From Deltaproteobacteria bacterium HGW-Deltaproteobacteria-19 (GTDB taxonomy: Bacteria; Desulfobacterota; Syntrophia; Syntrophales; PHBD01), in NCBI GenBank assembly GCA_002841865.1, contig PHBD01000024.1, positions 1-48,454 of the forward strand: a DNA stretch of 48,454 bases, in the 5' to 3' direction. Each line of letters opens with the position of its first letter. Within the stretch, counting starts at the first letter, position 1. Shown here one piece after another: positions 8,478 through 24,477 of this stretch. The position numbers and the translations under genes are program-made. The notes under the pieces are model-generated. The model ran no database searches, was not told the origin of the DNA, and worked only from the letters and a program-made list of their open reading frames with translations.

Positions 8478-8592
8478 ATCCGCCGAGGCGGGGCCTCGCT
8501 TCCTCCGCCGACGGGCAGAGATGAAACGGAGAAGCCGTGACAACGATCATCCCCCGCACGGCCTGCATGACAAACACGCGAAAGGAGGTCCC

Positions 8593-9285
8593 ATGAAAGC
8601 CAAGCCCCGCTCCCTCGAACAACTGGTGAAAGAGCAACTGGACAAATGGAACGGCCTGCCGGTTCAGACCAGGAAGACGAAAGAAAGACCCGCTCCCGTC
8701 ATCACCGTCTCCCGGGAACCCGGATGCGGGGGCACCGCCATCGCCCGCAAGCTGTCGTCGGCACTCGGCATGGACCTGGTCAGCGGCCAGATCATCCAGA
8801 AGGTGGCGGACAGCGCCGAGATGAGCGAAAAGGTCGTGGCCTCCCTGGACGAAAAACAGGTCACCCGCCGCGACGACTGGCTGACATCCCTTTTCGAAGT
8901 CCGCCACCTCTGGCCGGACAGCTATCTCCGCCATCTGACGAAAGTCGTCGGCACCGTCGGGCGGCACGGAAACGCGGTCATCCTCGGCCGGGGCGCCAAT
9001 TTCATGCTCCCGCCGGAGGAGACCTTCCGGATCCGCCTGATCGGTCCCCGGGAGGCTCGCATCGCCCGGGTCATGAAAGACAAAAAGGTCTCCGGGAGCG
9101 AGGCGGAGGAATACGTCGTCCGCACCGAGTCGGACAGGAACGCCTTCGTGCGGAAATATTTCCATGCCGACATCGGCGACCCCGCCCACTATGACATGAT
9201 CCTCGACACGAGCCGCCTCGGCATCGATGGCGTCGTAGAGAGCGTCAAAGCCGCTTATGCGGCGTGGCGGAAGATCGCCGGCTGA
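8593..9285 (+). CDS. Cytidylate-kinase-like family protein (copy 1)
   Basis: This 230-residue protein belongs to the cytidylate-kinase-like family (Cytidylate_kin2 type). It starts with a helix LEQLVKEQLDKW, then the atypical nucleotide loop SREPGCGGTAIARKL, which lacks the usual P-loop Lys-Gly-Thr, followed by VVASLDEKQ, WLTSLFEVRHLWP, GNAVILGRGANFML and a lid region MKDKKVSGSEAEEYV. The start at 8593 has a strong AAAGGAGG (8581-8588). The frame extends upstream to 8197, but that part overlaps the ACT gene and is not coding. A strong terminator follows at 9317. Copy 2 (21504-22289) is closely related throughout this core. True CMP kinase activity is doubtful given the altered loop; a regulatory or different kinase role is possible. 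Confidence 0.82.
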   Translation: MKAKPRSLEQLVKEQLDKWNGLPVQTRKTKERPAPVITVSREPGCGGTAIARKLSSALGMDLVSGQIIQKVADSAEMSEKVVASLDEKQVTRRDDWLTSLFEVRHLWPDSYLRHLTKVVGTVGRHGNAVILGRGANFMLPPEETFRIRLIGPREARIARVMKDKKVSGSEAEEYVVRTESDRNAFVRKYFHADIGDPAHYDMILDTSRLGIDGVVESVKAAYAAWRKIAG

Positions 9286-9475: not shown

Positions 9476-11626
9476 GTGGCGAAGAACGCGGCACAACAGA
9501 CCCCGGCGGACGAGTTGGCCGGCCTCCGGCGAAGGATTGCGGACCTGGAAAAAGCGGAACAGGTCCGCCACGCCGGCGAGGCTCTCCTGGCCAGCATCAT
9601 CGGCGGCTCCCCGATTCCGACCTTCGTCATCGGTCGGGACCACCGGATCCTCTACTGGAACCGGGCACTGGAGGAGCTCAGCCGTATCCGGGCCGACGAG
9701 GTAATCGGAACGAACCAGCAGTGGCGGGCCTTCTACGCCCGGGAACGGCCCTGCATGGCGGATCTCCTGGTGGACGGCGCCCAGAAGGCCATTCCGACCT
9801 GGTACACCGGGAAATACATCCCCTCCAAGCTCATCGACGAGGCCTACGAAGCGACGGACTTCTTTCCCGAACTGGGAGAAGAGGGGCGCTGGCTGCGGTT
9901 CACCGCCGCCGTGCTCCGCGACGCCGGGGGACGTCTCGTGGGGGTCGTGGAGACCCTGGAGGACATCACGGAGCGGCGCCAGGCCGAGGAAGCCCTTCGG
10001 GCCGCCCATGAGAAGCTGGAATCGCGGGTCCGGGAGCGGACCGCCGAACTGGCAAAGGCCAACCTCGCCCTCAAGGAGACCACGGAGCATCTCTCCCTCA
10101 TTCTCGAATCCCTGCCGATCGTCTCGTACAGCCGCCAGGCGGAGTCCCCCTTCTCCCTCACGTATGTGAGCACCACGGTAAAGGAAATGACGGGTTACGA
10201 CCCGGAACGATTCCTGGAAGAGCCCGGCTTCTGGGAGAGCCGCGTCCATCCGGACGACCGGACCCGGCCCCCGCGGGGATCGAAAGTGCGGCGGCGTCAG
10301 GGGAAATCCGAGTACCGCTTCCGCATCGCCGACGGGAGCTATCGATGGTTCTCCGATTACTGGCGCCTGCTCCGCCACTCCGGCGGCCCGCCTCCCCAGA
10401 TCGCCGGCGTCTGGCAGGACGTGACGGAAGAAAAGCGGATGCGACAGGAAGCGGAACTCCGGCTCCAGCAGATGATCCAGACCCACAAGCTCACGGCCCT
10501 GGGCGAAGTCGTGGCCGGCGTGGCCCACGAGATCAACAACCCGGTGAGTTTCATCTCTTACAACATCCCCCTCCTGGAGGAAATCTGGAGCGCCGTCGAG
10601 CCCAGCATCCACCGCCTCGGGGAGATCGACCCGCGCTGGCGGGACCGGGACGTCCGGCCCGAAGAGATTACCCGGCACATGCGGGAGATCATCGAGGCCT
10701 TCCGCGTCGCCTCCAACCGGATCAGCCGGGTCATCACGAACCTCAAGGAGTTTTCCCGGTCCGACGAGCGTTCCTCACGGATGAAGCCCCTGCAGGTTTC
10801 AGAGGCCGTCCAGGGAGCCCTTCTGATCGTCGGCGGCCAGATCCGCCGGACCGTCTCCACGATCGAGCAGCGCATCGAGCCTGACCTGCCGCCGATCCTG
10901 GGAAACATCCAGAAGCTGGAGCAGGTCCTGACGAACCTGCTCATCAACGCCCACCAATCCATGCCCGACGGCGGCAGGAAGGGCCGCCTCACTGTCTCGG
11001 CCCGTTCTGTTCCCCGCCTGAGTGCGGTCCTCCTGGAAGTGGAGGACAACGGCCGGGGCATCCCCAGGGAGAACCTGGGCCATCTGTTCGATCCCTTCTT
11101 CACGACCCGGCGGGATTCCGGAGGGACCGGGCTGGGTCTTTCCATTTCCTATGGCCTCGTGCGGGAACACAACGGCCTCATCGGCGTTCTTTCCCGTCCC
11201 GGCGTGGGAAGCCGTTTTTCCGTCTTCCTGCCCGTCGAAGGCAAGACCCTGCCGAAGATCCTGCCTTCCATCCTGTGCCTGGGAACCGATGCGGAGTTTC
11301 TCGGCACCCTGAAGGCCGCCCTGGTGGAAGCGGAAACCTGGGTCGCCGGTCCCGGGATCGGCGTTCCGTCGGTTCTGAAATACCTGGATGAACACCCGGA
11401 GGTGGACACGGTGGTCACGGAATGGATCCTCTCGAACCTGGACGGGCGCGACCTCCTCAAGGCCGTTCGCGACCGGTTTCCACTGGTGGAGGTGGTGCTC
11501 TGCGCCTCCGAGGAGGATGCCCGGCGCCTGTCCGCCGGGGGAACTGCCGGAGAGATTCTCGTCAAGCCCGCCGCTGCCGGGCAGTTGCAGAAAATCCTTG
11601 AGAAAAAGGGGAGGTTGAGACTTTGA
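9476..11626 (+). CDS. PAS-PAS hybrid histidine kinase with degenerate receiver domain
   Basis: This 716-residue soluble sensor kinase has no membrane segment. Domains in order: a short coiled coil, PAS-1 (about 36-165) of the distinctive type with WRAFYARERPCMADLL, a coiled-coil linker (RVRERTAELAKAN), PAS-2 (about 205-320), a dimerisation/phosphoacceptor domain with His351 in VAHEINNPVSF, an ATPase domain (N-box NLLINAHQSM; DNGRGI; GGTGLGLSI) and a C-terminal receiver-like domain (about 600-716). In the last, the phosphoacceptor Asp is replaced by Glu649 and the acidic pair is poor, although the VKP Lys motif remains. The start is GTG at 9476 with GCAGGAA upstream. It overlaps the regulator gene by four bases, so the two form a two-component pair. 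The signal is unknown; PAS-1 is shared with the triple-PAS protein at 22491. Confidence 0.9.
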   Translation: MAKNAAQQTPADELAGLRRRIADLEKAEQVRHAGEALLASIIGGSPIPTFVIGRDHRILYWNRALEELSRIRADEVIGTNQQWRAFYARERPCMADLLVDGAQKAIPTWYTGKYIPSKLIDEAYEATDFFPELGEEGRWLRFTAAVLRDAGGRLVGVVETLEDITERRQAEEALRAAHEKLESRVRERTAELAKANLALKETTEHLSLILESLPIVSYSRQAESPFSLTYVSTTVKEMTGYDPERFLEEPGFWESRVHPDDRTRPPRGSKVRRRQGKSEYRFRIADGSYRWFSDYWRLLRHSGGPPPQIAGVWQDVTEEKRMRQEAELRLQQMIQTHKLTALGEVVAGVAHEINNPVSFISYNIPLLEEIWSAVEPSIHRLGEIDPRWRDRDVRPEEITRHMREIIEAFRVASNRISRVITNLKEFSRSDERSSRMKPLQVSEAVQGALLIVGGQIRRTVSTIEQRIEPDLPPILGNIQKLEQVLTNLLINAHQSMPDGGRKGRLTVSARSVPRLSAVLLEVEDNGRGIPRENLGHLFDPFFTTRRDSGGTGLGLSISYGLVREHNGLIGVLSRPGVGSRFSVFLPVEGKTLPKILPSILCLGTDAEFLGTLKAALVEAETWVAGPGIGVPSVLKYLDEHPEVDTVVTEWILSNLDGRDLLKAVRDRFPLVEVVLCASEEDARRLSAGGTAGEILVKPAAAGQLQKILEKKGRLRL

Positions 11627-12999
11627 GAATCCTGGCCGTGGACGATGAGGAGATCTCCCTCTCCTCCATCAAGAGGCTCCTGAACTGGCGAGGCTACAAG
11701 GACGTCGAGACCTGCCGCGGCGGCGCCGAGGCCATTCGCAGGCTTCGAATGGAGGACTTCGACATCGTCCTCCTGGACCTCCTGATGCCGGAGATGGACG
11801 GCCTGACCGTGCTGGAGACGGTTAAGCCCTATCTTCCCCAGACGGAATTCATCATCCTGACCGCCGTGGACGACCTGTCCACGACAGTCAGGGCCATCCG
11901 GACGGGTGCCTACGACTACCTGGTGAAGCCCGTGGACAACGAGCTTCTGATTCTTACGATCCAGCGGGCTTACGAGCGGAAAGGCCTTCTGAACAGCCTG
12001 GCGCCGACGACGGAGGGTCGGGCCGCCGACATCCCGGAGGCCTTCGCGGCCACGATCACGCAATCCCCCCGCATGAAATCCATCCTTGCCTACGCCCAGG
12101 TCATGGCCAGGAGCGGCAATCCCGTCCTGATCACGGGCGAATCGGGAACCGGCAAGGAACTGGTCGCCCGAGGCATCCATCGGGCAGGCCCTGCGCCCGG
12201 CGGCCCCTTCATCGCTGTCAATGTCAGTGCCATCCCCACGACCATGTTCGAAACCCAGTTTTTCGGACACACCCGTGGCGCTTTCACGGGGGCCGATTCG
12301 AGCTACCGCGGCTTCTTCGAACAGGCAGATGGGGGCACCCTCTTTCTCGACGAAATCGGCGAACTCCCTGCGGGTCTCCAGTCGAAGCTTCTCCGCGTCC
12401 TGGAAGATCATACCTTCACCCCTCTGGGAAGCAACCGAGCCGTCCAGGTGGACGTCCGCGTCATTTCCGCGACCAACATGGATCTCGACCGGGCCAGCCA
12501 GGAGGGGCGCTTCCGCCTCGACCTTTTCTATCGCCTCAAATCCGCCCACATCCATCTGCCGCCCCTCAGTGAGCGGGAAGGGGATATCGCTCTGCTGGCA
12601 AACCACTTCCTGAAGGAGTCCGGAAAACGATACGCCAAAGAGGTCCTCGGGTTCAGCCCCGAGGCCATGGAGATCCTTCGTCAGGGCCAGTACCGCGGGA
12701 ATATCCGGGAACTGGCCCAAGTCGTGGAAAACGCAGTCCTGCTGGCCGACGCTCCCTGGATCCTGCCCCGTCACCTGGGAGCGACCCCTCCCCGGCCGGT
12801 CCCTTTCGCCAGGCGTATGGGCACCCTCAAGGAAAACGAGGAGGCCCACGTCGCCTATGTCCTCACGAACACCGGCGGCGATCGGAAGCAGACTGCCCGG
12901 ATCCTCGGGATCACCGTCCGCCAGCTCCAGAGAAAAATTGCCCAGATGCGCCAGCAGACGCACTGGCAGGACTATCTGGACGACACCACTGTCCCCTGA
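11623..12999 (+). CDS. NtrC-family sigma-54-dependent response regulator
   Basis: This 458-residue activator has a receiver domain (phosphoacceptor Asp52 in VLLDLLMPEMDG, DDE at residues 7-9, KP at 103-104), a sigma-54 AAA+ domain with Walker A GESGTGKE, the sigma-54-contact loop GAFTGA and Walker B GGTLFLDEIGE, then a Fis-type helix-turn-helix near the C-terminus (RKQTARILGITVRQLQRKI). It should activate sigma-54 promoters after phosphorylation by the adjacent kinase. The start is TTG at 11623 inside the kinase stop region, with GGGGAGG (11608-11614) eight bases upstream. A strong terminator at 13021 and a sigma-54 promoter at 13222 lie directly downstream, which points to the RsbRD/N-ATPase region as target (inference). 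Confidence 0.94.
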   Translation: MRILAVDDEEISLSSIKRLLNWRGYKDVETCRGGAEAIRRLRMEDFDIVLLDLLMPEMDGLTVLETVKPYLPQTEFIILTAVDDLSTTVRAIRTGAYDYLVKPVDNELLILTIQRAYERKGLLNSLAPTTEGRAADIPEAFAATITQSPRMKSILAYAQVMARSGNPVLITGESGTGKELVARGIHRAGPAPGGPFIAVNVSAIPTTMFETQFFGHTRGAFTGADSSYRGFFEQADGGTLFLDEIGELPAGLQSKLLRVLEDHTFTPLGSNRAVQVDVRVISATNMDLDRASQEGRFRLDLFYRLKSAHIHLPPLSEREGDIALLANHFLKESGKRYAKEVLGFSPEAMEILRQGQYRGNIRELAQVVENAVLLADAPWILPRHLGATPPRPVPFARRMGTLKENEEAHVAYVLTNTGGDRKQTARILGITVRQLQRKIAQMRQQTHWQDYLDDTTVP

Positions 13000-13020
13000 A
13001 GTTGACGACCTTTCTGTCAT

Positions 13021-13056
13021 AAGAGGGGCGACATAAAGGTCGCCCCTCTTTATTCC
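13021..13056 (+). terminator. Intrinsic terminator after the response regulator
   Basis: AAGAGGGGCGAC (13021-13032) and GTCGCCCCTCTT (13039-13050) form a perfect 12-base stem with a six-base loop, followed by TATTCC. It ends the kinase/regulator transcript, so the next gene needs its own promoter. Confidence 0.8.
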
Positions 13057-13097: not shown

Positions 13098-13199
13098 ACG
13101 ATCGTTTGGCCTCTGGCGGCAACGACACGGACAGAAACGCCCTTCCCGCCAGGACAACCCCCGCACAAACTAATCAACAATGGTTATGGGTGCTTGCAC
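13098..13199. promoter_or_regulatory. Dyad elements upstream of the sigma-54 promoter, possible activator sites
   Basis: The spacer between the terminator and the sigma-54 promoter holds a perfect palindrome ACGATCGT (13098-13105), an inverted repeat CTGGCGG/CCGCCAG (13113-13119 and 13146-13152), and GTGCTTGCAC (13190-13199). They lie roughly 50-150 bases before the predicted start of transcription, where enhancer sites of NtrC-type activators are usual. Which, if any, is bound is not known. Confidence 0.3.
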
Positions 13200-13221: not shown

Positions 13222-13238
13222 CTGGCATGTCCTTTGCG
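13222..13238 (+). promoter_or_regulatory. Sigma-54 (-24/-12) promoter
   Basis: CTGGCATGTCCTTTGCG matches the sigma-54 pattern TGGCAC-N5-TTGC. The GG at -24 (13224-13225) and the GC at -12 (13236-13237) are exactly ten bases apart, and the only change in the -24 block is T for the final C. It lies about 45 bases upstream of the first RsbRD-like gene, just downstream of a terminator and of a sigma-54 activator gene. Transcription should start near 13249. Confidence 0.72.
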
Positions 13239-13282
13239 CTGAAGAAGGGCAAAGACAAAGTCTACGAGAGGAGGTGGCGGAG

Positions 13283-13747
13283 ATGTACATGGGAATGAAG
13301 CTGATCGACCTGGTGGAAACGCACGCGGAGCAGATCGCCCGACAGTGGGCCAAAAACGTGCGGAAGAACCCGTTCACCCCTTACTATCACGGCCTTCCGG
13401 ATGAGCAACTGGTCCCGCAGGCGGTCGTTTTCTACGAGAAGTTCCGCAACCTGTTCATGGAACCAAAGCCGGTGGAGGCGTCCGAGGGATATTTCGCCCG
13501 GTATGCCGAGGAGAGCTATCGACGAGGCGTGCCCCTTCACGAGGCGCTCTACGCGCTGATCCTGATGAGGCGGCAGATCTGGCTCTACGCCGAGTTTCAG
13601 GTCCTCTTCTTCACGGCGGTGGAGCAGAACCTGGCCGTGGAAAGCATCACGCGGACGATCCTGATGTTCGACTATGCCGTATATTTCATCAGCAAAAAGT
13701 ACGGGGAACTGATGAAGCTCGAGTGGTTCGAGGCCCCCAACACGTAA
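13283..13747 (+). CDS. RsbRD N-terminal-domain-like protein (copy 1)
   Basis: This 154-residue, all-helical protein resembles the N-terminal sensor domain of RsbRD, a stressosome-type protein. Visible pattern: THAEQIARQWAKNVRKNP near the start, YARYAEE-type and PLHEALYALILMRRQIW segments, then TRTILMFDYAVYF near the end. The STAS domain that RsbR proteins normally carry is absent. The start at 13283 is taken because GAGAGGAGG (13266-13274) lies just upstream; Met codons at 13289 and 13295 are alternatives. The frame from 13073 would cover the promoter and is rejected. It is the first gene behind the sigma-54 promoter. Copies 2 (13839) and 3 (23965) share its core motifs. Signal and partner are unknown. 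Confidence 0.8.
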   Translation: MYMGMKLIDLVETHAEQIARQWAKNVRKNPFTPYYHGLPDEQLVPQAVVFYEKFRNLFMEPKPVEASEGYFARYAEESYRRGVPLHEALYALILMRRQIWLYAEFQVLFFTAVEQNLAVESITRTILMFDYAVYFISKKYGELMKLEWFEAPNT

Positions 13748-13838: not shown

Positions 13839-16515
<2,677 letters not shown>

Positions 16516-16523
<8 letters not shown>

Positions 16524-16845
16524 AGAGAAACTGACCCCTCGGGAACGGCGCCAGAAACAGGCGGAGGACTTCACGCGCAAGGTTGGGACCAAGGAGCTGC
16601 GGCGCATCAAAGGAAAGACGCACAAGGACGAAACGGTCTGGTTCGGCCTTGGCATGATCGGGGTCGTGGGCTGGTCCGTGGCCATCCCCACCCTCATCGG
16701 GACGGCCATCGGGCTCTGGATCGACCGAGGCTGGCCGAGCCGGTTTTCCTGGACCCTCATGCTTCTCATCCTTGGGGTGTCCCTGGGATGCCTCAATGCC
16801 TGGTATTGGGTGAAGAAGGCCCGCGAGACCATCATCAAGGACTGA
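16516..16845 (+). CDS. atpQ: N-ATPase accessory membrane protein AtpQ (AtpI-like)
   Basis: This 109-residue protein has a charged N-terminal third (KLTPRERRQKQAEDF) followed by two membrane helices (GLGMIGVVGWSVAIPTLIG and FSWTLMLLILGVSLGCL) joined by a short loop LWIDRGWP. This is the pattern of the AtpI-like/ATPase gene 1 family. Known members help assemble the c-ring. Position between atpC and atpR is characteristic of N-ATPase operons, which is the main reason for the name. Confidence 0.87.
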
Positions 16846-16909
16846 ACGGGTCGTCCATCCCTGCAAGTCGGCCCGTGAGCCGCACAGGTGACAGGAAAGG
16901 GTGTAACCC

Positions 16910-17218
16910 ATGGAATCCGTTTCCACGCTCCTCGTTCCGCTGATCGCCGGCGCCCTGCTCGGCCTCCTCTACTTTGCCGGGCTCTGGCAGACCCTGCAGC
17001 GCCTGCCGGGCACCCTCCATCCCTGGAGGCTCATGGCCGCCAGCTACACCCTGCGGCTGGCAGCCGCACTGGGCGGATTCTACTTCCTCATGGATGGGGC
17101 CTGGGAGCGCCTGGTTGCAGCCGTGATCGGCTTCTTCGCAGTCCGCGCCGCGATGATCCGGGGCCTTGGTCCGAAGGACGCTCTTCCCGCGAAAGGAATC
17201 CCGTCATGGAAATCGTAG
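16910..17218 (+). CDS. atpR: N-ATPase subunit AtpR
   Basis: This 102-residue protein has three membrane helices (VPLIAGALLGLLYFAGLW, SYTLRLAAALGGFYFL, LVAAVIGFFAVRAAMI). Two of the helices contain an Arg (LRLAAAL, FAVRAAM), a feature of AtpR, where these charges have been proposed to contact the c-ring carboxylates. AtpR occurs only with N-type ATPases. Its end overlaps the start of atpB by 13 bases. The upstream site is AGGAAAGG. Confidence 0.87.
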   Translation: MESVSTLLVPLIAGALLGLLYFAGLWQTLQRLPGTLHPWRLMAASYTLRLAAALGGFYFLMDGAWERLVAAVIGFFAVRAAMIRGLGPKDALPAKGIPSWKS

Positions 17219-17922
17219 CCATCAACCAGATCAGTCCCGATCAGGTCATCTTCTTCGCCTGGAAGTTCGTCACCATCAACGCCACCCTCGTGTACACGTG
17301 GCTCATCATGGGCATCCTGGTCGTCGGGTCGGTCCTTATCACCCGGAACCTGTCGACGGAACGGACCATGTCCCGGTGGCAGAACCTGATGGAGGTGATT
17401 GTCACGGGAATCCGCGGAGAGATCCGGGAGATGGCGAAGGACGGGGTGGACACGTACTTCCCTTTCATCGGCACCATTTTTCTCTTCATCCTGCTCTCCA
17501 ACCTGCTCACGTTCCTCCCCGGCTATGTCGCCCCGACATCGTCCCTCACGACGACCTCGGCCCTGGCGATCCTGGTTTTCTTCGCCGTGCCGATCTACGG
17601 GATCAGCAAGCAGGGAATCATCGAATACCTGAAGGAGTATATCCGCCCGAACCCCATCTTCTTCCCCTTTCACGTCATGGGCGAGCTGTCCCGCACCCTG
17701 GCGCTGGCGGTTCGGCTCTTCGGAAACCTGATGAGCCACGAGAAGGTCGTTGCCATCCTCTTGGCCGTGACCCCCCTGTTTTTCCCGATCGTCATGCAGG
17801 CCCTGGGGCTTCTCATCGGGCTCATCCAGGCCTACATCTTTGCGGTTCTTGCCATGGTCTACATTGCGTCTGCGACCCAGACGCACGAGGAAGGGGAGCA
17901 TCCTCCCAAAACGTCATCGTAA
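17206..17922 (+). CDS. atpB: N-ATPase Fo subunit a
   Basis: This 238-residue integral membrane subunit forms the ion half-channels. The essential Arg is in TLALAVRLFGNLMSHE, and a second conserved stretch is FPIVMQALGLLIGLIQAYIF near the C-terminus. Membrane segments start at about residues 25, 80, 110, 165 and 190. The ATG at 17206 lies inside the 3' end of atpR, with AAAGGA upstream; the open frame extends back to 16888 but that part lies over atpR. atpE follows 26 bases later. Confidence 0.95.
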   Translation: MEIVAINQISPDQVIFFAWKFVTINATLVYTWLIMGILVVGSVLITRNLSTERTMSRWQNLMEVIVTGIRGEIREMAKDGVDTYFPFIGTIFLFILLSNLLTFLPGYVAPTSSLTTTSALAILVFFAVPIYGISKQGIIEYLKEYIRPNPIFFPFHVMGELSRTLALAVRLFGNLMSHEKVVAILLAVTPLFFPIVMQALGLLIGLIQAYIFAVLAMVYIASATQTHEEGEHPPKTSS

Positions 17923-17948
17923 CCATCAAAACCAGAGGAGGTATCGGT

Positions 17949-18227
17949 ATGGACAGCGTGACAATCATAGCAATGGCCTCGATCATTACCGCGGGCATCT
18001 GCATGGGGATCGGCGCCATCGGCCCCGCCCTCGGACAGGGGCGGGCGGTACAGGGCGCCCTGGGATCGATCGCACAGCAGCCGGACGAGCGCAATTCGCT
18101 CACAAGAACGCTCTTTGTCGGCCTCGCCATGATCGAATCCATCGCGATTTACTGCTTCGTCATCTCCATGATCCTGGTCTTCGCAAATCCTTTCTGGGCT
18201 TACGTCATCAAGAGAGCGGGAGGCTGA
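17949..18227 (+). CDS. atpE: N-ATPase Fo subunit c (ring subunit, Na+-type ligand set)
   Basis: This 92-residue, two-helix subunit forms the rotor ring. Helix 1 holds GPALGQG with Gln30. The loop is AQQPDERN. Helix 2 holds GLAMIESIAIYCFV with the ion-carrying Glu63, followed by Ser64 and Tyr68. Gln, Glu, Ser and Tyr correspond to Na+ ligand positions Gln32, Glu65, Ser66 and Tyr70 known from the Ilyobacter tartaricus ring. The Thr67 position is Ile65 here. I therefore infer Na+ coupling. GAGGAGG just upstream (17935-17941) is the strongest ribosome site in the operon, as expected for a subunit needed in many copies. Confidence 0.95.
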   Translation: MDSVTIIAMASIITAGICMGIGAIGPALGQGRAVQGALGSIAQQPDERNSLTRTLFVGLAMIESIAIYCFVISMILVFANPFWAYVIKRAGG

Positions 18228-18231
18228 TTCC

Positions 18232-18999
18232 ATGCACATCGACTGGTTCGTCTTTTTCTCCCAGATCGTCAACCTGATGATCCTGATGTTCCTGCTGAAG
18301 AAGTTTCTTTACGGGAAGATCGTCGGGGCAATAGACGCCAGGGAGGCGAAGATCGCCGCAGTCTTCGCAGAGGCCGAGCAGTCCCGATTGGAGGCCGAGA
18401 GCGCGGCGACGTCGCATGCGCGGAACCTCCGGGAGCTGGACGAACGCCACGAGTCGCTGCTCGAAAAATCGCGCCAGGACGCGGAGAGCTACCGGGAGCG
18501 GCTCGAGGAGAAGGCCCGGGAGGAGACGGACTTCCTGAAGACCCGGTGGATCGAGGCAGTGAAGTCGGAGCGGGAGAACTTTCTCCGGGAACTCCGGCAT
18601 CTGGCGGGCAAGCAAACCTACGCCGTGACGCGGCGGGTGCTCCACGACCTGGCGGAAGTGGACCTGGAGGATCGGATCGTGGAGATCCTGGCGGAGCGGG
18701 TCGTCTCCATGGACGAAGGAGAGCGAAACAGGTTCCGGGAACCCCTGGAGAACGGGGGCGTCGTCACCGTTACGAGCGCTTTCGACCTTACCCCGGAAAG
18801 AAGGGAAAGACTCAACGTCGCTCTTCGGCAGCACATCGCCGCCGATATCGAGGTGGTATTCAGTCAGTCCGACGACCTGCTCTCAGGCTGTGAGCTCCGG
18901 TCAGACGGGCACAAGATCGCCTGGAGCATCAAGGACTACCTCGATACCCTGGAGGAGAGCTTCTACACGGCGCTCTATGAGAAGGCACAGGAACGGTAA
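18232..18999 (+). CDS. atpF: N-ATPase subunit b with C-terminal delta-like domain
   Basis: This 255-residue subunit is about 100 residues longer than a classical b. It has one N-terminal membrane helix ([20 protein letters not shown]), a long charged stalk helix (about 40-140), and then a globular end. The last ~75 residues ([43 protein letters not shown]) align with the C-terminal domain of subunit delta, which has the same VISAAxL...GVxIRxGDxVIDGS order. No separate atpH exists in this operon, so this fusion probably supplies the stator contact. This agrees with the alternate-type F0 b family. Confidence 0.92.
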
Positions 19000-19022
19000 C
19001 AGGGCTCCAAGGAGAGGAGATC

Positions 19023-20591
19023 ATGGAGATCATGACGGATACGACACCGGAAAAAGAACAGATGAAGACCTTTCTGGACGGAACCTTCAAGACCATGGAC
19101 GCCGTCCTCGACGACCAGGAGGCGGAACTGAGGGACCGCGAGATCGGCACGGTCACGTACGTCGGGTACGGCATCGTCCAGGTCAGCGGGCTGCCGACCA
19201 TCCGTTCCGACGAAGTCGTCCTGTTCCCCGAGAACTTGCAGGGGCTGGTCTTCAACATCGACCCCGACGAGATCGGCGTCATTCTCCTCGGCCACAGCGA
19301 ACATCTGTCGGCGGGGGCCGAGGTGAGAAGGACGGGCCGGATCCTCGACGTCCCGGTCGGGGAATCCCTCATCGGCCGGGTCGTGGACGCCCAGGGGCGC
19401 CCCCTGGACAACGGGGGGGTGATCCGGACCGTCAAGCGCCTGCCGGTGGAGCAGGAGGCGCCCCCCGTCATGGCCCGGGATCCCGTGACGGTGCCTCTGC
19501 AGACAGGCATCAAGGTCATCGACGCCCTCTTCCCGATCGGCCGGGGACAGCGTGAGCTCATCGTCGGGGACCGCCAGACGGGAAAAACGGCCATCGCCCT
19601 CGATGCCATCATCAACCAGGCCGGCAAAGACGTCCTGTGCATCTACTGCACCATCGGGAAGAAAGCCTCCGACACGGCCAAGGTCATCGCCGATCTGAAG
19701 CAGTACAAGGCCATGTCCTACACAACGGTCGTCGTCGCCACCGCAGAAGACCCGCCGGGTCTCCAGTTCATCGCACCCTACGCCGCCACCTCCATGGCCG
19801 AGTACTTCATCGCCCAGGGACGGGACGTCCTGATCATCTACGATGACCTGACAAGCCACGCCCGGGCCTACCGGGAACTTTCCCTGCTCCTCCGTCGGCC
19901 CCCGGGACGGGAGGCCTTCCCGGGAGACATCTTTTACATCCACTCACGCCTGCTGGAGCGGTCGACCCATCTCCGGAAGGACCTCGGCGGCGGCTCCCTT
20001 ACGTCGCTTCCCATCGTGGAGACAGAGGCCCAGGACATCTCGGGCTACATCCCGACGAACCTGATCTCCATCACCGACGGGCAGCTCTACCTGTCGCCCC
20101 GCCTCTTTCAGAAGGGCATTCTCCCCGCCATAGACGTGGGCAAGTCGGTGTCCCGCGTGGGCGGCAAGGCCCAGCTCCCGGCCTATCGGGCCGTCGCCGG
20201 AGACGTCCGGATCTCCTACTCCCAGTTCGAAGAGCTGGAGACCTTCTCCCGCTTCGGGACCCGCCTTGACGATGCGACCCGGAAGGTCCTCGACCGGGGC
20301 TGGCGGCTCCGGGAAATCCTGAAGCAGCCACAGTACAAGCCCATCCCCGTGGCCGAGCAGGTCGCAGCAATCCTGGCCGTCACCTCGGGGCAGTTCGATG
20401 CCGTCGCCGTGGAGGACATCCGGACCGCTGAAGACAAGCTCCGGAAGGACGTGGCGGAGAATCAGGCCGGTTTCTGCTCCCGCATCAGCGAGGGAGAGAA
20501 ATTCAGCGACAAGGACCGGGAAGCGATCGTCTGCGTGGCCCGGGAAACAGCCGTCTGTTTCCGGAAGGAGCCCGAACGTGCTGACAGCTGA
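19023..20591 (+). CDS. atpA: N-ATPase F1 subunit alpha
   Basis: This non-catalytic nucleotide-binding subunit has 522 residues. Walker A is [13 protein letters not shown] (about 180). Other conserved stretches are [54 protein letters not shown] (read in parts), and [12 protein letters not shown], which carries the arginine-finger region. The N-terminus is a helix ([17 protein letters not shown]) that should bind the delta-like end of subunit b. AAGGAGAGGAG upstream supports the start. The end overlaps atpG by 14 bases. Confidence 0.95.
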
Positions 20592-21507
20592 AGCCCTGAA
20601 GCGCAGGATCCAGAGCGCCCAGGATCTCCTGGGGGTGGTGAAGACCATGAAGGCCCTGGCGGCCGTCAGCATCCGCCAGTACCAGCGGGCCGTCGAGTCC
20701 CTGGGGGAATACAACCGGACCGTCGAGATGGGCCTCCAGGTCCTCCTGAAAGACCGCCGTGACCCCCTCTCGTCATCCGTGTCCAGGGTCCCCCGCCTAG
20801 GGGCGATCGTGTTTGGAACCGACCAGGGTCTCTGCGGCCAGCTCAACAACGTCATCGTCCAGCACGCTCTGGAAGAAATGGACAAGACCGGCATACCCAA
20901 AGAGAACCGGATTGTGATCGCCATCGGCGTGAAAACGGCGGACCTCCTGGAGGACGGGGGACAGCGGGTCTTCGAGACGCTGGCAACCCCGGGTTCGACA
21001 GCGGGCATCACGCCCATGGTCCAGGACATCACGCTCTTCCTGGAAACCTGGCGGTTCCGGAACCTCGTGGAAAACATGTCGCTCTATTACAACGAGTACC
21101 TCACCGGCGCAAATTACCGGCCGCGGACGCTGAAACTTCTTCCGATCGACAAGGAATGGCTTGCCGGCCTCCGGAAGCGGAAATGGGCGTCCCGCACACT
21201 CCCGATGTTCACCATGGACTGGGAGCCCCTCTTCCGGGCCATGATCCGGGAATACCTGTTCGTCTCCCTGTACCAGGCATTCGCCAACTCGCTGGCCAGC
21301 GAGAACGCGAGCCGCCTCGCGGCGATGCAGAACGCGGAAAAGAACATCGAGGAACGTCTTGAGGAGCTCAACGTCCAGTTCCACCGCCAGCGCCAGATGA
21401 CCATCACGGAGGAACTGCTCGATATCGTGAGCGGGTTTGAAGCAATGAAGGCAGTCAAGGTCGGGGATGGCTCGGTGGCGTCCCGGAAAGGAGGGACCAG
21501 ACCATGA
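20578..21507 (+). CDS. atpG: N-ATPase F1 subunit gamma
   Basis: This 309-residue central shaft has the N-terminal helix [20 protein letters not shown] and the C-terminal helix [17 protein letters not shown], which form the rotating coiled coil, with a Rossmann-like part between ([18 protein letters not shown]). The start is GTG at 20578 with GAAGGAG (20564-20570) seven bases upstream, inside the end of atpA; the frame open from 20398 is not used. The stop overlaps the start of the cytidylate-kinase-like gene (ATGA), so that gene belongs to the ATPase transcript. Confidence 0.93.
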
Positions 21508-22289
21508 CGACGGAAAGACGGCTGTGCGTGATCTGTGCCTGGCGGGAACATTGCCAGAAGCGTTTCAGCGTAACCTACAATGGGTCGCTAAACATCCACT
21601 GCCCCGATTTTACGAGAGATTACACGATCCGGGACCTGGAGGCGGACAAGCAGGTCGTGGAGGCCGTCCTGGACAAGTGGCGCAAGGAAGGGCTGACGGG
21701 CCCCCGCCCGTGCATCACCATTTCCCGGGAACCGGCGGCCGGTGGAAGCGAGATCTCCCGGAGGCTGGCTGCCGACCTCAAGATGGACCTCATGGGCGGC
21801 CAGATCATTTCCCGCGTGGCCGAAAGCGCGGGCATGAGTGAAAAGGTCGTGGCGACCCTGGACGAAAAACGCGTCTCCACCCTGGACACGTGGCTCACGT
21901 CGCTCTTCACGGCCCGCCACCTCTGGCCCGACGTCTACCTGAAACACTTGACGAAAGTCATCGGTACGATCGGGGAACACGGCAACGCCATCATCGTCGG
22001 CCGGGGAGCCCAGTTCATCCTGCCGCTGGAGAGGCTCTTCCGGGTCCGCTTCATCGCCCCTCAGGAACAACGCATCGCCAAGGTCATGAAAGACCGGAAA
22101 TACAGCAGGGACGATGCGGAAAGTTACGTGGTCAAGGCAGAGGCGGATCGGGCCGCCTTCATCAAGAAATATTTCCGGGAGGACATCGCCGACCCGGCCC
22201 ATTTCGACCTGGTTCTCAACACGGCCGGGTTGACCGTCGACCAGGCCACGGAAATCGTAAAGGCCTCCTTCCGGGCAAAGTTCCCCTGA
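21504..22289 (+). CDS. Cytidylate-kinase-like protein with N-terminal Cys cluster (copy 2)
   Basis: This 261-residue protein is the second member of the cytidylate-kinase-like family here. The kinase-like core (from about residue 70) matches copy 1 (8593): ISREPAAGGSEISRRL, MSEKVVATLDEKR, WLTSLFTARHLWPDVYLKH, GNAIIVGRGAQFIL, MKDRKYSRDDAESYV. The nucleotide loop lacks the P-loop Lys. Unlike copy 1 it has an N-terminal CVICAWREHCQKRF with a further Cys in HCPDFTRDY: four Cys (8, 11, 17, 33), a plausible metal or Fe-S site (inference). Its start overlaps the atpG stop, giving coupling to the ATPase. It may link nucleotide or redox state to the ATPase; no substrate is shown. Confidence 0.82.
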   Translation: MTTERRLCVICAWREHCQKRFSVTYNGSLNIHCPDFTRDYTIRDLEADKQVVEAVLDKWRKEGLTGPRPCITISREPAAGGSEISRRLAADLKMDLMGGQIISRVAESAGMSEKVVATLDEKRVSTLDTWLTSLFTARHLWPDVYLKHLTKVIGTIGEHGNAIIVGRGAQFILPLERLFRVRFIAPQEQRIAKVMKDRKYSRDDAESYVVKAEADRAAFIKKYFREDIADPAHFDLVLNTAGLTVDQATEIVKASFRAKFP

Positions 22290-22323: not shown

Positions 22324-22490
22324 CCGGGCCGGTCGGCAACCGTCGGGGGCCCGGATCGCTTTCATTCCCGGTCGGGCCCATCGATCCGGATGGGATCCTG
22401 CCGGCTGATGCCTTCCCTGTCCGGGAAGGAACCCGGATCTCATCTCCGTTCACGTAGAAGATGGCAGTCGCTTCAAGAAAGGAGGACGGT

Positions 22491-23882
22491 ATGAAAGGGA
22501 AAGCCGCAAAAAAACAGACATCGGGCGGGAAAGGTCCGGTGAAGAAAGAGGGTGGGGCTCCGTCGGCCTCGACGGTCTCCAGCCTTCTGCTCCATAGCAT
22601 CATCCAGGGGTTTTCCATCCCTGCCTTCGTAATCGGAACGGACCACAAGGTCCTTTTCTGGAACTCCGCACTGGAGAAGCTGAGCAACATCCCGGCCGGC
22701 GAAATCGTAGGAACCAACCAGCAGTGGCGAGCCTTCTACGCCGAGGAGAGGCCCTGTATGGCCGACCTCATCCTGAACGGCATCACGGAACGGATTCCCA
22801 AGTGGTACGCCGGCAAGTACCGGAAGTCCGATCTCCTGGAGGAAGCATACGAGGCGACGGATTTCTTTCCCGACCTGGGAGAAGACGGCCGCTGGCTCCG
22901 CTTCACCGCAGCGGCTGTCCGGGACGATGGCGGGCGCCTCGTGGGCGCCCTCGAAACCCTGGAAGACATCACGGAACAGAAGGTAGCCGAGATCAACCAG
23001 CGGGAAATCGAACAGAGGCTCTTCTACGTCATCGAGGGATCTCCCATTCCCACGTTCGTCGTCGGCCTGGACCACAAGGTGATCTACTGGAACCGGGCAC
23101 TGGAGAGACTCAGCAAAATCCCGGCGATAGAGATGATCGGTACGAACGGTCACTGGCGGGCCTTCTATGCCCAGGAGCGGCCCTGCATGGCCGACCTCCT
23201 GGTCAATGAAACGCCGGAGATCATTCAGGAATGGTACCGGGGGGTGGCAAAATCGAAGCTCCTCGACGAGACCTACGAGGCGGAGGGCTTCTTCCCCGAC
23301 CTGGGAGAGAGCGGCCGCTGGCTCCGATTCATCGCGGTTCCCATCCGCAGTTCCCAGCGGGTCCTGATGGGTGCCATCGAAACGCTGGAGGACATCACGG
23401 AACGCAAGCGAATCGAGCAGGTGGTCATCGAGAACGAACAGCGACTCCGCAGCGTGATCCAGGGGTTTTCCATTCCCGCCTTCGTAATCGGGAAGGACCA
23501 CAAGGTGCTCTACTGGAACCGGGCCCTGGAACAGCTGAGCAAGATCCCCGCCTCGGAGGTCGTCGGGACCAACCGGCACTGGCGGGCCTTCTACGCCCAG
23601 GAGAGGCCCTGCATGGCCGATCTCCTGGTGGACAGCGCCCTGGCCAAAGTCCCGAAGTGGTACTCGGGAAAGTACCGGAAATCGGACCTCATCGAGGAGT
23701 CGTACGAGGCGACGGACTTCTTTCCCGCCCTGGGCAAAAGCGGACGCTGGCTCCGGTTCACAGCCGCCGCGATCCGGGATTCCCATGGAGAACTCGTCGG
23801 GGCGGTGGAGACACTGGAGGACATCACCGAGCAGAAAACGGCGGAGGATAGCCTGAAGAAGGCGGCACGAGTGAAGAAATGA
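22491..23882 (+). CDS. Triple PAS-domain protein without output domain
   Basis: This 463-residue soluble protein has a Lys/Gly-rich start, then three PAS domains (about 35-165, 178-305, 318-450), each ending in LEDITE. All three carry the same loop W(R)AFYAxERPCMADL with an invariant Cys, and a WLRF motif. The histidine kinase at 9476 has one copy of the same type. There is no kinase, cyclase, methyl-acceptor or DNA-binding domain; the C-terminus is a short Lys-rich tail. AAAGGAGG (22478-22485) supports ATG 22491. It may be a ligand-binding scaffold that pairs with the kinase PAS-1. Domain limits are estimates. Confidence 0.82.
   Translation: MKGKAAKKQTSGGKGPVKKEGGAPSASTVSSLLLHSIIQGFSIPAFVIGTDHKVLFWNSALEKLSNIPAGEIVGTNQQWRAFYAEERPCMADLILNGITERIPKWYAGKYRKSDLLEEAYEATDFFPDLGEDGRWLRFTAAAVRDDGGRLVGALETLEDITEQKVAEINQREIEQRLFYVIEGSPIPTFVVGLDHKVIYWNRALERLSKIPAIEMIGTNGHWRAFYAQERPCMADLLVNETPEIIQEWYRGVAKSKLLDETYEAEGFFPDLGESGRWLRFIAVPIRSSQRVLMGAIETLEDITERKRIEQVVIENEQRLRSVIQGFSIPAFVIGKDHKVLYWNRALEQLSKIPASEVVGTNRHWRAFYAQERPCMADLLVDSALAKVPKWYSGKYRKSDLIEESYEATDFFPALGKSGRWLRFTAAAIRDSHGELVGAVETLEDITEQKTAEDSLKKAARVKK
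22590..23845 (+). repeat. Three in-frame repeats encoding PAS domains
   Basis: Units start near 22590, 23025 and 23445. Repeats 1 and 3 are nearly identical over about 50 bases at their beginning (the ATCCAGGGGTTTTCCAT block is at 22602 and 23457, 855 bases apart). Repeat 2 is more diverged there. This suggests later duplication or gene conversion between units 1 and 3. Confidence 0.75.
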
Positions 23883-23964: not shown

Positions 23965-24477
23965 ATGACATCCTACGCCACGAAGTTGATCGAGATCACC
24001 GAGCGTCACGCCGATACGATCGCCCAGCAATGGTATAACAACGTCCGGATGAATCCCAGGACGCCGTCGTATCACAAGATGCCGGAGGAAGAAGCGAAAA
24101 AACAAGCCATGTATTTTTTCACCAACTTCCGGAAGCTGTTTTTTTCGGACAACCCCTTCGAGGAGGCGCAGACACTGTTCTCGCGATATGCGGAAGCCCG
24201 CCACAAAGAGCGGATCTCCCTCCCCGAGGTCGTATACGCCCTCACCCTCATGCGTCGCCACATGTGGCTTTTCTCCACTTCCCAGGCCGTATTCATCACG
24301 GCGGTGGAGCACCATCACGCTGCGGAGAGCCAGAGCCGCACGATCCTGATGTTCGATTATGCCATCTACATCATTGTCCAGAAATACGAAGAACTGGTGA
24401 AAAAGGAAGTCGAGGAGAAGCTGAAGTCCCTGAAGGTCAAGACCCCCCTGACGTTCTGGGGAAGCGACCGAAAATGA
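23965..24477 (+). CDS. RsbRD N-terminal-domain-like protein (copy 3)
   Basis: This 170-residue helical protein is related to copies 1 and 2 upstream of atpD: ITERHADTIAQQWYNNVRMNP, YAEARHKERISLPEVVYAL, LMRRHMWLF, HHHAAESQSRTILMFDYAIYI. There is no STAS or other output domain. AAGGAGG lies just before ATG 23965. It is 82 bases behind the triple-PAS gene and probably co-transcribed with it, so a PAS/RsbRD pair flanks the N-ATPase on this side too. The role is unknown. The next gene, rtcB, is convergent. Confidence 0.78.
   Translation: MTSYATKLIEITERHADTIAQQWYNNVRMNPRTPSYHKMPEEEAKKQAMYFFTNFRKLFFSDNPFEEAQTLFSRYAEARHKERISLPEVVYALTLMRRHMWLFSTSQAVFITAVEHHHAAESQSRTILMFDYAIYIIVQKYEELVKKEVEEKLKSLKVKTPLTFWGSDRK

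Follow-up and report, generated by a model that had tools for sequence, protein, structure and literature searches.

A predicted sigma-54 promoter with candidate enhancer dyads upstream of the N-ATPase operon in Syntrophales

What calls for the transcription of an N-ATPase, an enzyme whose cellular functions are described as largely unexplored (PMC5376962, accessible part)? The 48,454-nucleotide stretch of Syntrophales DNA analysed here (the window) poses the question concretely: an N-ATPase operon is preceded by genes for a sensor kinase, an NtrC-type activator and two small proteins (ORF1 and ORF2), and a match to the sigma-54 promoter consensus lies between the activator gene and ORF1. Is the match a promoter, which protein and which DNA sites would serve it, and how far would its transcripts reach? 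The parts are these (a, c, b and gamma subunits being named from their translations rather than by family search):

9476..11626, plus strand: sensor histidine kinase with two PAS regions, HisKA and HATPase (Pfam)
11623..12999, plus strand: NtrC-type sigma-54 activator with receiver, AAA+ domain with GAFTGA, and Fis-type HTH (Pfam; GAFTGA from translation)
13005..13020, plus strand: candidate enhancer dyad 1, ACGACCTTTCTGTCAT (conserved pair)
13028..13043, plus strand: candidate enhancer dyad 2, GCGACATAAAGGTCGC (conserved pair; core of a hairpin at 13021-13050)
13222..13238, plus strand: predicted sigma-54 -24/-12 promoter (consensus match and conservation in relatives)
13283..13747, plus strand: ORF1, 154 aa, single globin-like (RsbR_N-type) domain by predicted fold; ATG after GGAGG
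13839..14678, plus strand: ORF2, 279 aa, ORF1-like domain and a hydrophobic, probably membrane C-terminal part (translation)
14743..16140, plus strand: N-ATPase beta (AtpD; TIGR03305, 788 bits, cut-off 752)
16140..21507, plus strand: rest of the N-ATPase operon, namely epsilon, AtpQ-like, AtpR, a, c, b, alpha and gamma (epsilon and ATPase_gene1 by family search)
16910-17218, plus strand: AtpR (PF12966)
19023-20591, plus strand: N-ATPase alpha (TIGR03324, 799 bits, cut-off 750.5)

With beta and alpha above the cut-offs for alternate F1F0 enzymes, and with AtpR- and AtpQ-type genes, the operon is of the N-ATPase kind (atpDCQRBEFAG) that Dibrova is said to have defined in 2010; it differs from other N-ATPase operons in having two ORF1-type genes and the putative sigma-54 cassette in front. 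Its c subunit reads Q...ES..Y, which would be a Na+-type signature; the N-ATPase of B. pseudomallei (Burkholderia) is reported to be proton-coupled (PMC5376962, accessible part). Two cytidylate-kinase-like genes, at 8584-9285 and 21504-22289, flank the whole cluster (TIGR02173 below cut-off; PF13189, E 6.6e-42).

The putative promoter element and its probable regulators

The first-pass annotation put a -24/-12 element ahead of ORF1, and there it lies: TGGCATGTCCTTTGC at 13223-13237 is a complete match to the 15-base sigma-54 consensus TGGCAYRN4TTGC, its GG (13224-13225) and GC (13236-13237) separated by ten bases, and it is the only zero-mismatch match in the window. A gap of 45 bp separates the matched 15-mer from the ATG of ORF1 at 13283. 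The genome has an rpoN gene (TIGR02395, 456 bits, cut-off 277). By itself the element is suggestive only, because the whole 3.98 Mb genome holds 11 zero-mismatch matches where the pattern reversed, as a control, finds 5. (Another of the 11 directly precedes an open reading frame whose translation we take to be an ammonium-transporter-like protein; ammonium transporter genes are a classical kind of sigma-54 target.)

The upstream neighbour was likewise correctly recognised as a GAFTGA-containing sigma-54 activator: its Pfam domains, together with the GAFTGA in its translation, say so. Its scores against the NCBIfam equivalogs fall far under the cut-offs (AtoC, 371 of 714 bits; NtrC, 357 of 559). 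The kinase gene overlaps it in the window and adjoins the regulator gene in many orthologous loci; at its C-terminus the kinase also has a receiver match, below the Pfam threshold. Downstream of the operon, the protein encoded at 22461-23882 has three copies of a PAS domain, every copy sharing 57-66% identity with the kinase PAS, which is a hint of a shared ligand; a third ORF1-like gene (23965-24477) comes after it.

The reading that we favour, at a probability of about 0.87, is that the element is a real sigma-54 promoter driving ORF1, ORF2 and the N-ATPase genes as one operon by way of the kinase, the regulator and the dyads. From what the sequence shows, namely the parts, their order, the way they are conserved together and an rpoN gene in the genome, we infer the following course of events: 1) the PAS-domain kinase (9476) would phosphorylate the NtrC-type regulator (11623); 2) the regulator would bind the tandem dyads at 13005-13043, about 180-218 bp upstream of the promoter; 3) the DNA between dyads and promoter would loop; 4) the AAA+ domain of the regulator would remodel the RNA polymerase-sigma-54 complex at 13223-13238; 5) transcription would start near 13249, as predicted; and 6) RNA polymerase would read through ORF1 and ORF2 into the ATPase genes. 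Kinase, activator, upstream dyads and a -24/-12 promoter make up the familiar NtrC-type scheme. The arrangement is like those of NtrBC, ZraSR and AtoSC in its PAS kinase, its receiver-AAA+(GAFTGA)-Fis regulator, its tandem upstream dyads and its long-range -24/-12 promoter, and unlike them in its target, a rotary ATPase operon.

Recurrence within the Syntrophales

Does the same element stand before the orthologous genes of relatives, as the first-pass annotation proposed to check? It does. N-ATPase beta exceeds its cut-off in 70 of the 155 genomes of the order, and 74 loci were analysed, three of which have partial beta genes under the family cut-off; 71 offer 440 bp or more in front of the first operon gene recognised, and three with less (L073, L084, L116) were left out. 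Counting as an element any site that departs from TGGCAYRN4TTGCW at no more than one base, and as a dyad pair any score of at least 15 of 20, the element is found in 53 of the 71 loci (without mismatch in 40), the tandem pair in 49, and both together in 47. For 2840 segments drawn at random from these loci the corresponding numbers are 10 (3 without mismatch), 88 and 1; for 2840 dinucleotide-shuffled versions of the upstream stretches, a control added because the random segments were believed to be mostly coding DNA, they are 14 (0 without mismatch), 38 and 0. Two loci outside these counts also have a zero-mismatch element, L049 (G005), which is the upstream piece from one of the genomes so left out, with dyads of 0 and 1 mismatch, and L066 (G049) with dyads of 2 and 3 mismatches.

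A chance match to a short consensus would fit the modest excess over control in the genome, and with two mismatches allowed the window itself has 25 matches where chance predicts 26.9; the return of the element to the same operon in 53 of 71 loci, as against 10 of 2840 random segments, puts it far beyond chance and leaves that explanation a negligible one. The 53 loci represent 12 genera in 7 families, and this conservation supports what the first-pass annotation had proposed, a sigma-54 promoter with its cognate regulator and control of the whole operon.

The regulator keeps company with the element. A match with E no higher than 1e-160 exists in 65 of the 155 genomes, one per genome (absence is defined by that cut-off with up to ten candidates scored per genome, several genomes are incomplete, and some of the absences may not be real). 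Of the 71 loci, 50 combine regulator and element, 9 have the regulator alone, 3 the element alone and 9 neither (Fisher p 9e-5, uncorrected for kinship among lineages that are not independent). The three genomes with an element and no regulator match at the cut-off are G029, G051 and G069; in G051 and G069 there are fragments at contig ends. Six of the 53 element loci fall short of the pair threshold of 15 out of 20; conversely, L040 and L082 reach it and have no element, the genome of L082 also being without a regulator match.

The nine exceptions among the 59 loci of regulator-bearing genomes comprise six in family f14, to which we return below, and G144, G023 and G123. In G144 the dyads remain and the -12 block reads TTGT. 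The regulators of G023 and G123 match less well (60% and 56%), and no element stands before the N-ATPase genes of these genomes. (The HTH core RQLQRK is found in 16 of 19 regulators compared; the G023 and G123 proteins have it too, and it is therefore not diagnostic.) A one-mismatch element does lie some 200 bp past the regulator genes of these two genomes (G023, L211 10047; G123, L210 8331), with no dyad pair at threshold in either regulator locus.

Dyads, hairpin and cassette

Where would the regulator bind? The first-pass annotation pointed to dyads at 13098-13199. These amount to a 10-bp repeat at 90% and an 8-base palindrome, both weak; they show no conservation above their surroundings in six aligned loci, and have been rejected as the enhancer. 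The most likely enhancer, judged by conservation, is instead the tandem pair at 13005-13043, GCGAC-N6-GTCGC twice with a spacing of 21-23 bp, the first dyad of which starts 193-396 bp 5' of the element across the loci of the order. In the six aligned loci, the two dyads and the element together occupy 48 positions with 24 invariant columns; the remaining 222 of the first 270 positions have 16. The window's pair pattern occurs at a single place in the genome, both strands read, the reversed control giving one match per strand; weaker pairs would escape such a search. A third dyad-like site, GCGACNTTTNNTTCGC, lies between pair and promoter in many loci of families f21 and f11 (e.g., L041, L076, L097) and is not seen in the window's genus. 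In one f21 locus (L042, G148) element and dyad pair occur twice in nearly the same letters, before 9441 (ORF1) and before 14086 (ORF2), about 4.6 kb apart, perhaps through a duplication or as an effect of assembly.

Dyad 2 is also the core of what had been described as a strong terminator at 13021. The hairpin stands, as a 12-bp perfect stem (13021-13050) in a stretch with a folding energy of -23.8 kcal/mol; the terminator fares less well, being absent from the list of the terminator scan and having a conserved dyad at its core. Could the hairpin nevertheless merely terminate transcripts of the regulator gene, the dyads having nothing to do with activation? The perfect stem and T-rich tail would suit that purpose in the window's genome, and the sister genome G020 is similar, with a long G+C-rich stem around dyad 2 followed by T-rich sequence. 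Three observations make this very improbable: 1) In most other lineages the core pair is kept with weaker extended stems or none (a few loci, e.g., L096, L102 and L107, also fold stably). 2) In the f21 loci L041-L043 and L045 the dyads lie beside the promoter while the regulator gene is kilobases off on the opposite strand, so that there they are not its terminator. 3) A spacing of 21-23 bp corresponds to two helix turns. The hairpin at 13021 would thus be primarily enhancer dyad 2, its stem extended in the window's genus, where it may have the second role of terminating regulator-gene transcripts.

Family f14 shows the same parts at another address. Seven of its genomes have a regulator match, and in all five of the regulator loci fetched (L201-L205) the element follows the regulator gene, with the dyad pair in four, which ties dyads and element to the regulator; the N-ATPase loci of f14 have neither element nor pair. 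The next gene after the f14 cassette reads as a membrane PAS protein in 5/5 by translation (by Pfam for L201), and in L201, L202 and L205 a radical-SAM-type gene comes after it (Pfam for L201).

Beyond the order, the regulator was sought in 395 sampled genomes of the phylum, order members included, with up to four candidates scored per genome: 13 match at 1e-170, and only two of the 13 are not members of the order. One of these, G282 (L219 11119-12956), has the regulator (58%), then dyads and a zero-mismatch element, then a gene that we take to be of the dihydroorotate/dihydropyrimidine dehydrogenase type; its N-ATPase (L234) sits elsewhere and is without the element. The other, G424, has no such pair after its regulator gene. 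N-ATPase loci outside the order, examined in 22 of the 43 genomes with an N-ATPase match (21 with at least 1100 bp upstream, L245 with only 146), have the element in 0 of 22 and the dyad pair in 0 of 22, and the same examination finds the element in 7 of 8 loci of the order, the exception being G144. Going by these placements, regulator, dyads and promoter generally move together as one cassette, which is coupled to the N-ATPase in much of the Syntrophales.

The probable target and its meaning

If the promoter is real, does it serve the ATPase genes or only the two genes that come first? The gaps are as the first-pass annotation gave them, 91 bases between ORF1 and ORF2 and 64 between ORF2 and beta, and each has room for a start site, so that the ATPase genes might have a promoter of their own; the six f14 genomes with a regulator, whose N-ATPase operon lies behind ORF1-like genes without the element, could be read in the same sense. 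Against this, the scan of the window lists neither a plus-strand terminator-like site from ORF1 to beta, as had been claimed, nor a sigma-70-like one, and in 11 of the 53 element loci no ORF1/ORF2-like gene, the only kind of gene sought in these stretches, is detected on the way from the element to beta; nine of the 11 have an element starting 73-242 bp 5' of beta. The target is therefore probably the ATPase operon rather than ORF1 and ORF2 alone, and a promoter confined to the latter is unlikely.

What, then, are ORF1 and ORF2, which had been called RsbRD-like? They are related to each other, the N-terminal domain of ORF2 being 61% identical to ORF1. The name draws support from the predicted fold and from weak profile matches of relatives, RsbRD_N being matched at E up to 1 by 26 of 48 ORF1-type proteins (best 5.4e-5); against it, ORF1 of the window has no Pfam match at 0.001 and none to RsbRD_N (PF14361). 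Of the 48 proteins, 23 match HisK_N (best 2.5e-5). Part of ORF2 matches RsbRD_N below the gathering score (E = 0.1, 13.7 bits of 24.3). The ORF1 model (pLDDT 87) has a globin-like helical fold. Its best Foldseek matches are the globin domain of DosC and other globin-coupled sensors (lowest E 0.0076), and its VIA Z scores are 14.8 with DosC, 14.5 with pXO1-118 (3pmd) and 11.9 with RsbR_N (2bnl): globin-type sensor domains top both lists, with no Foldseek E under 0.001. The predicted fold is thus like the N-terminal non-haem globin domain of RsbR/RsbRD and the Bacillus pXO1-118 type, and ORF1 is unlike RsbR/RsbRD in being a stand-alone domain without STAS and without the Pfam RsbRD_N match. Haem binding is doubtful because His 86 is kept in 31 and His 36 in 38 of the 48 ORF1-type proteins. 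(Run against the sequences of the PDB, the ORF1 profile matched three RecA-fusion chains and nothing else; no stretch passed alone, and the result is set aside as an artefact.) Small globin-like proteins of this type occur in 121 of the 155 genomes of the order, in many of them several times.

How much of this has precedent? Pelobacter carbinolicus also has an N-type operon; its expression is described as condition-dependent on the strength of the authors' unpublished microarray, and, unlike the one in the window, it is transcribed divergently from a mechanosensitive channel gene (PMC3543383, accessible part). Under the spellings searched, the accessible part of that paper mentions sigma-54 in one reference title only; that of PMC4154653 contains no occurrence of "sigma", "promoter" or "regulat", and those of PMC4324140 and PMC5606693 hold nothing on sigma-54 control of an N-ATPase. 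Searches for literature joining N-ATPase with sigma-54, RpoN or Syntrophus found none (subscription papers being mostly outside their reach), and in wider searches nothing on sigma-54 and N-ATPase was recognised from titles and the starts of abstracts.

The type of circuit is textbook NtrC/sigma-54. What is new, to judge by these searches, is the N-ATPase as its probable target and the breadth of this arrangement in the Syntrophales. Sigma-54 promoters are silent until activated. A promoter of that kind with a dedicated two-component system would make of the N-ATPase a response rather than a housekeeping function: in these relatives of syntrophs the ion pump is probably switched on as a dedicated response. 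One may tentatively go further, to a proposal to which we give somewhat less than even odds: the Syntrophales cassette would be a single-operon, all-or-none switch that reverses energy flow (ATP-driven ion pumping) at the limit of thermodynamic feasibility, with the globin-like proteins, expressed along with it, as a second sensing layer, and in related lineages it would have been attached to other genes. For the signal, the kinase encoded at 9476 is the protein to interrogate.
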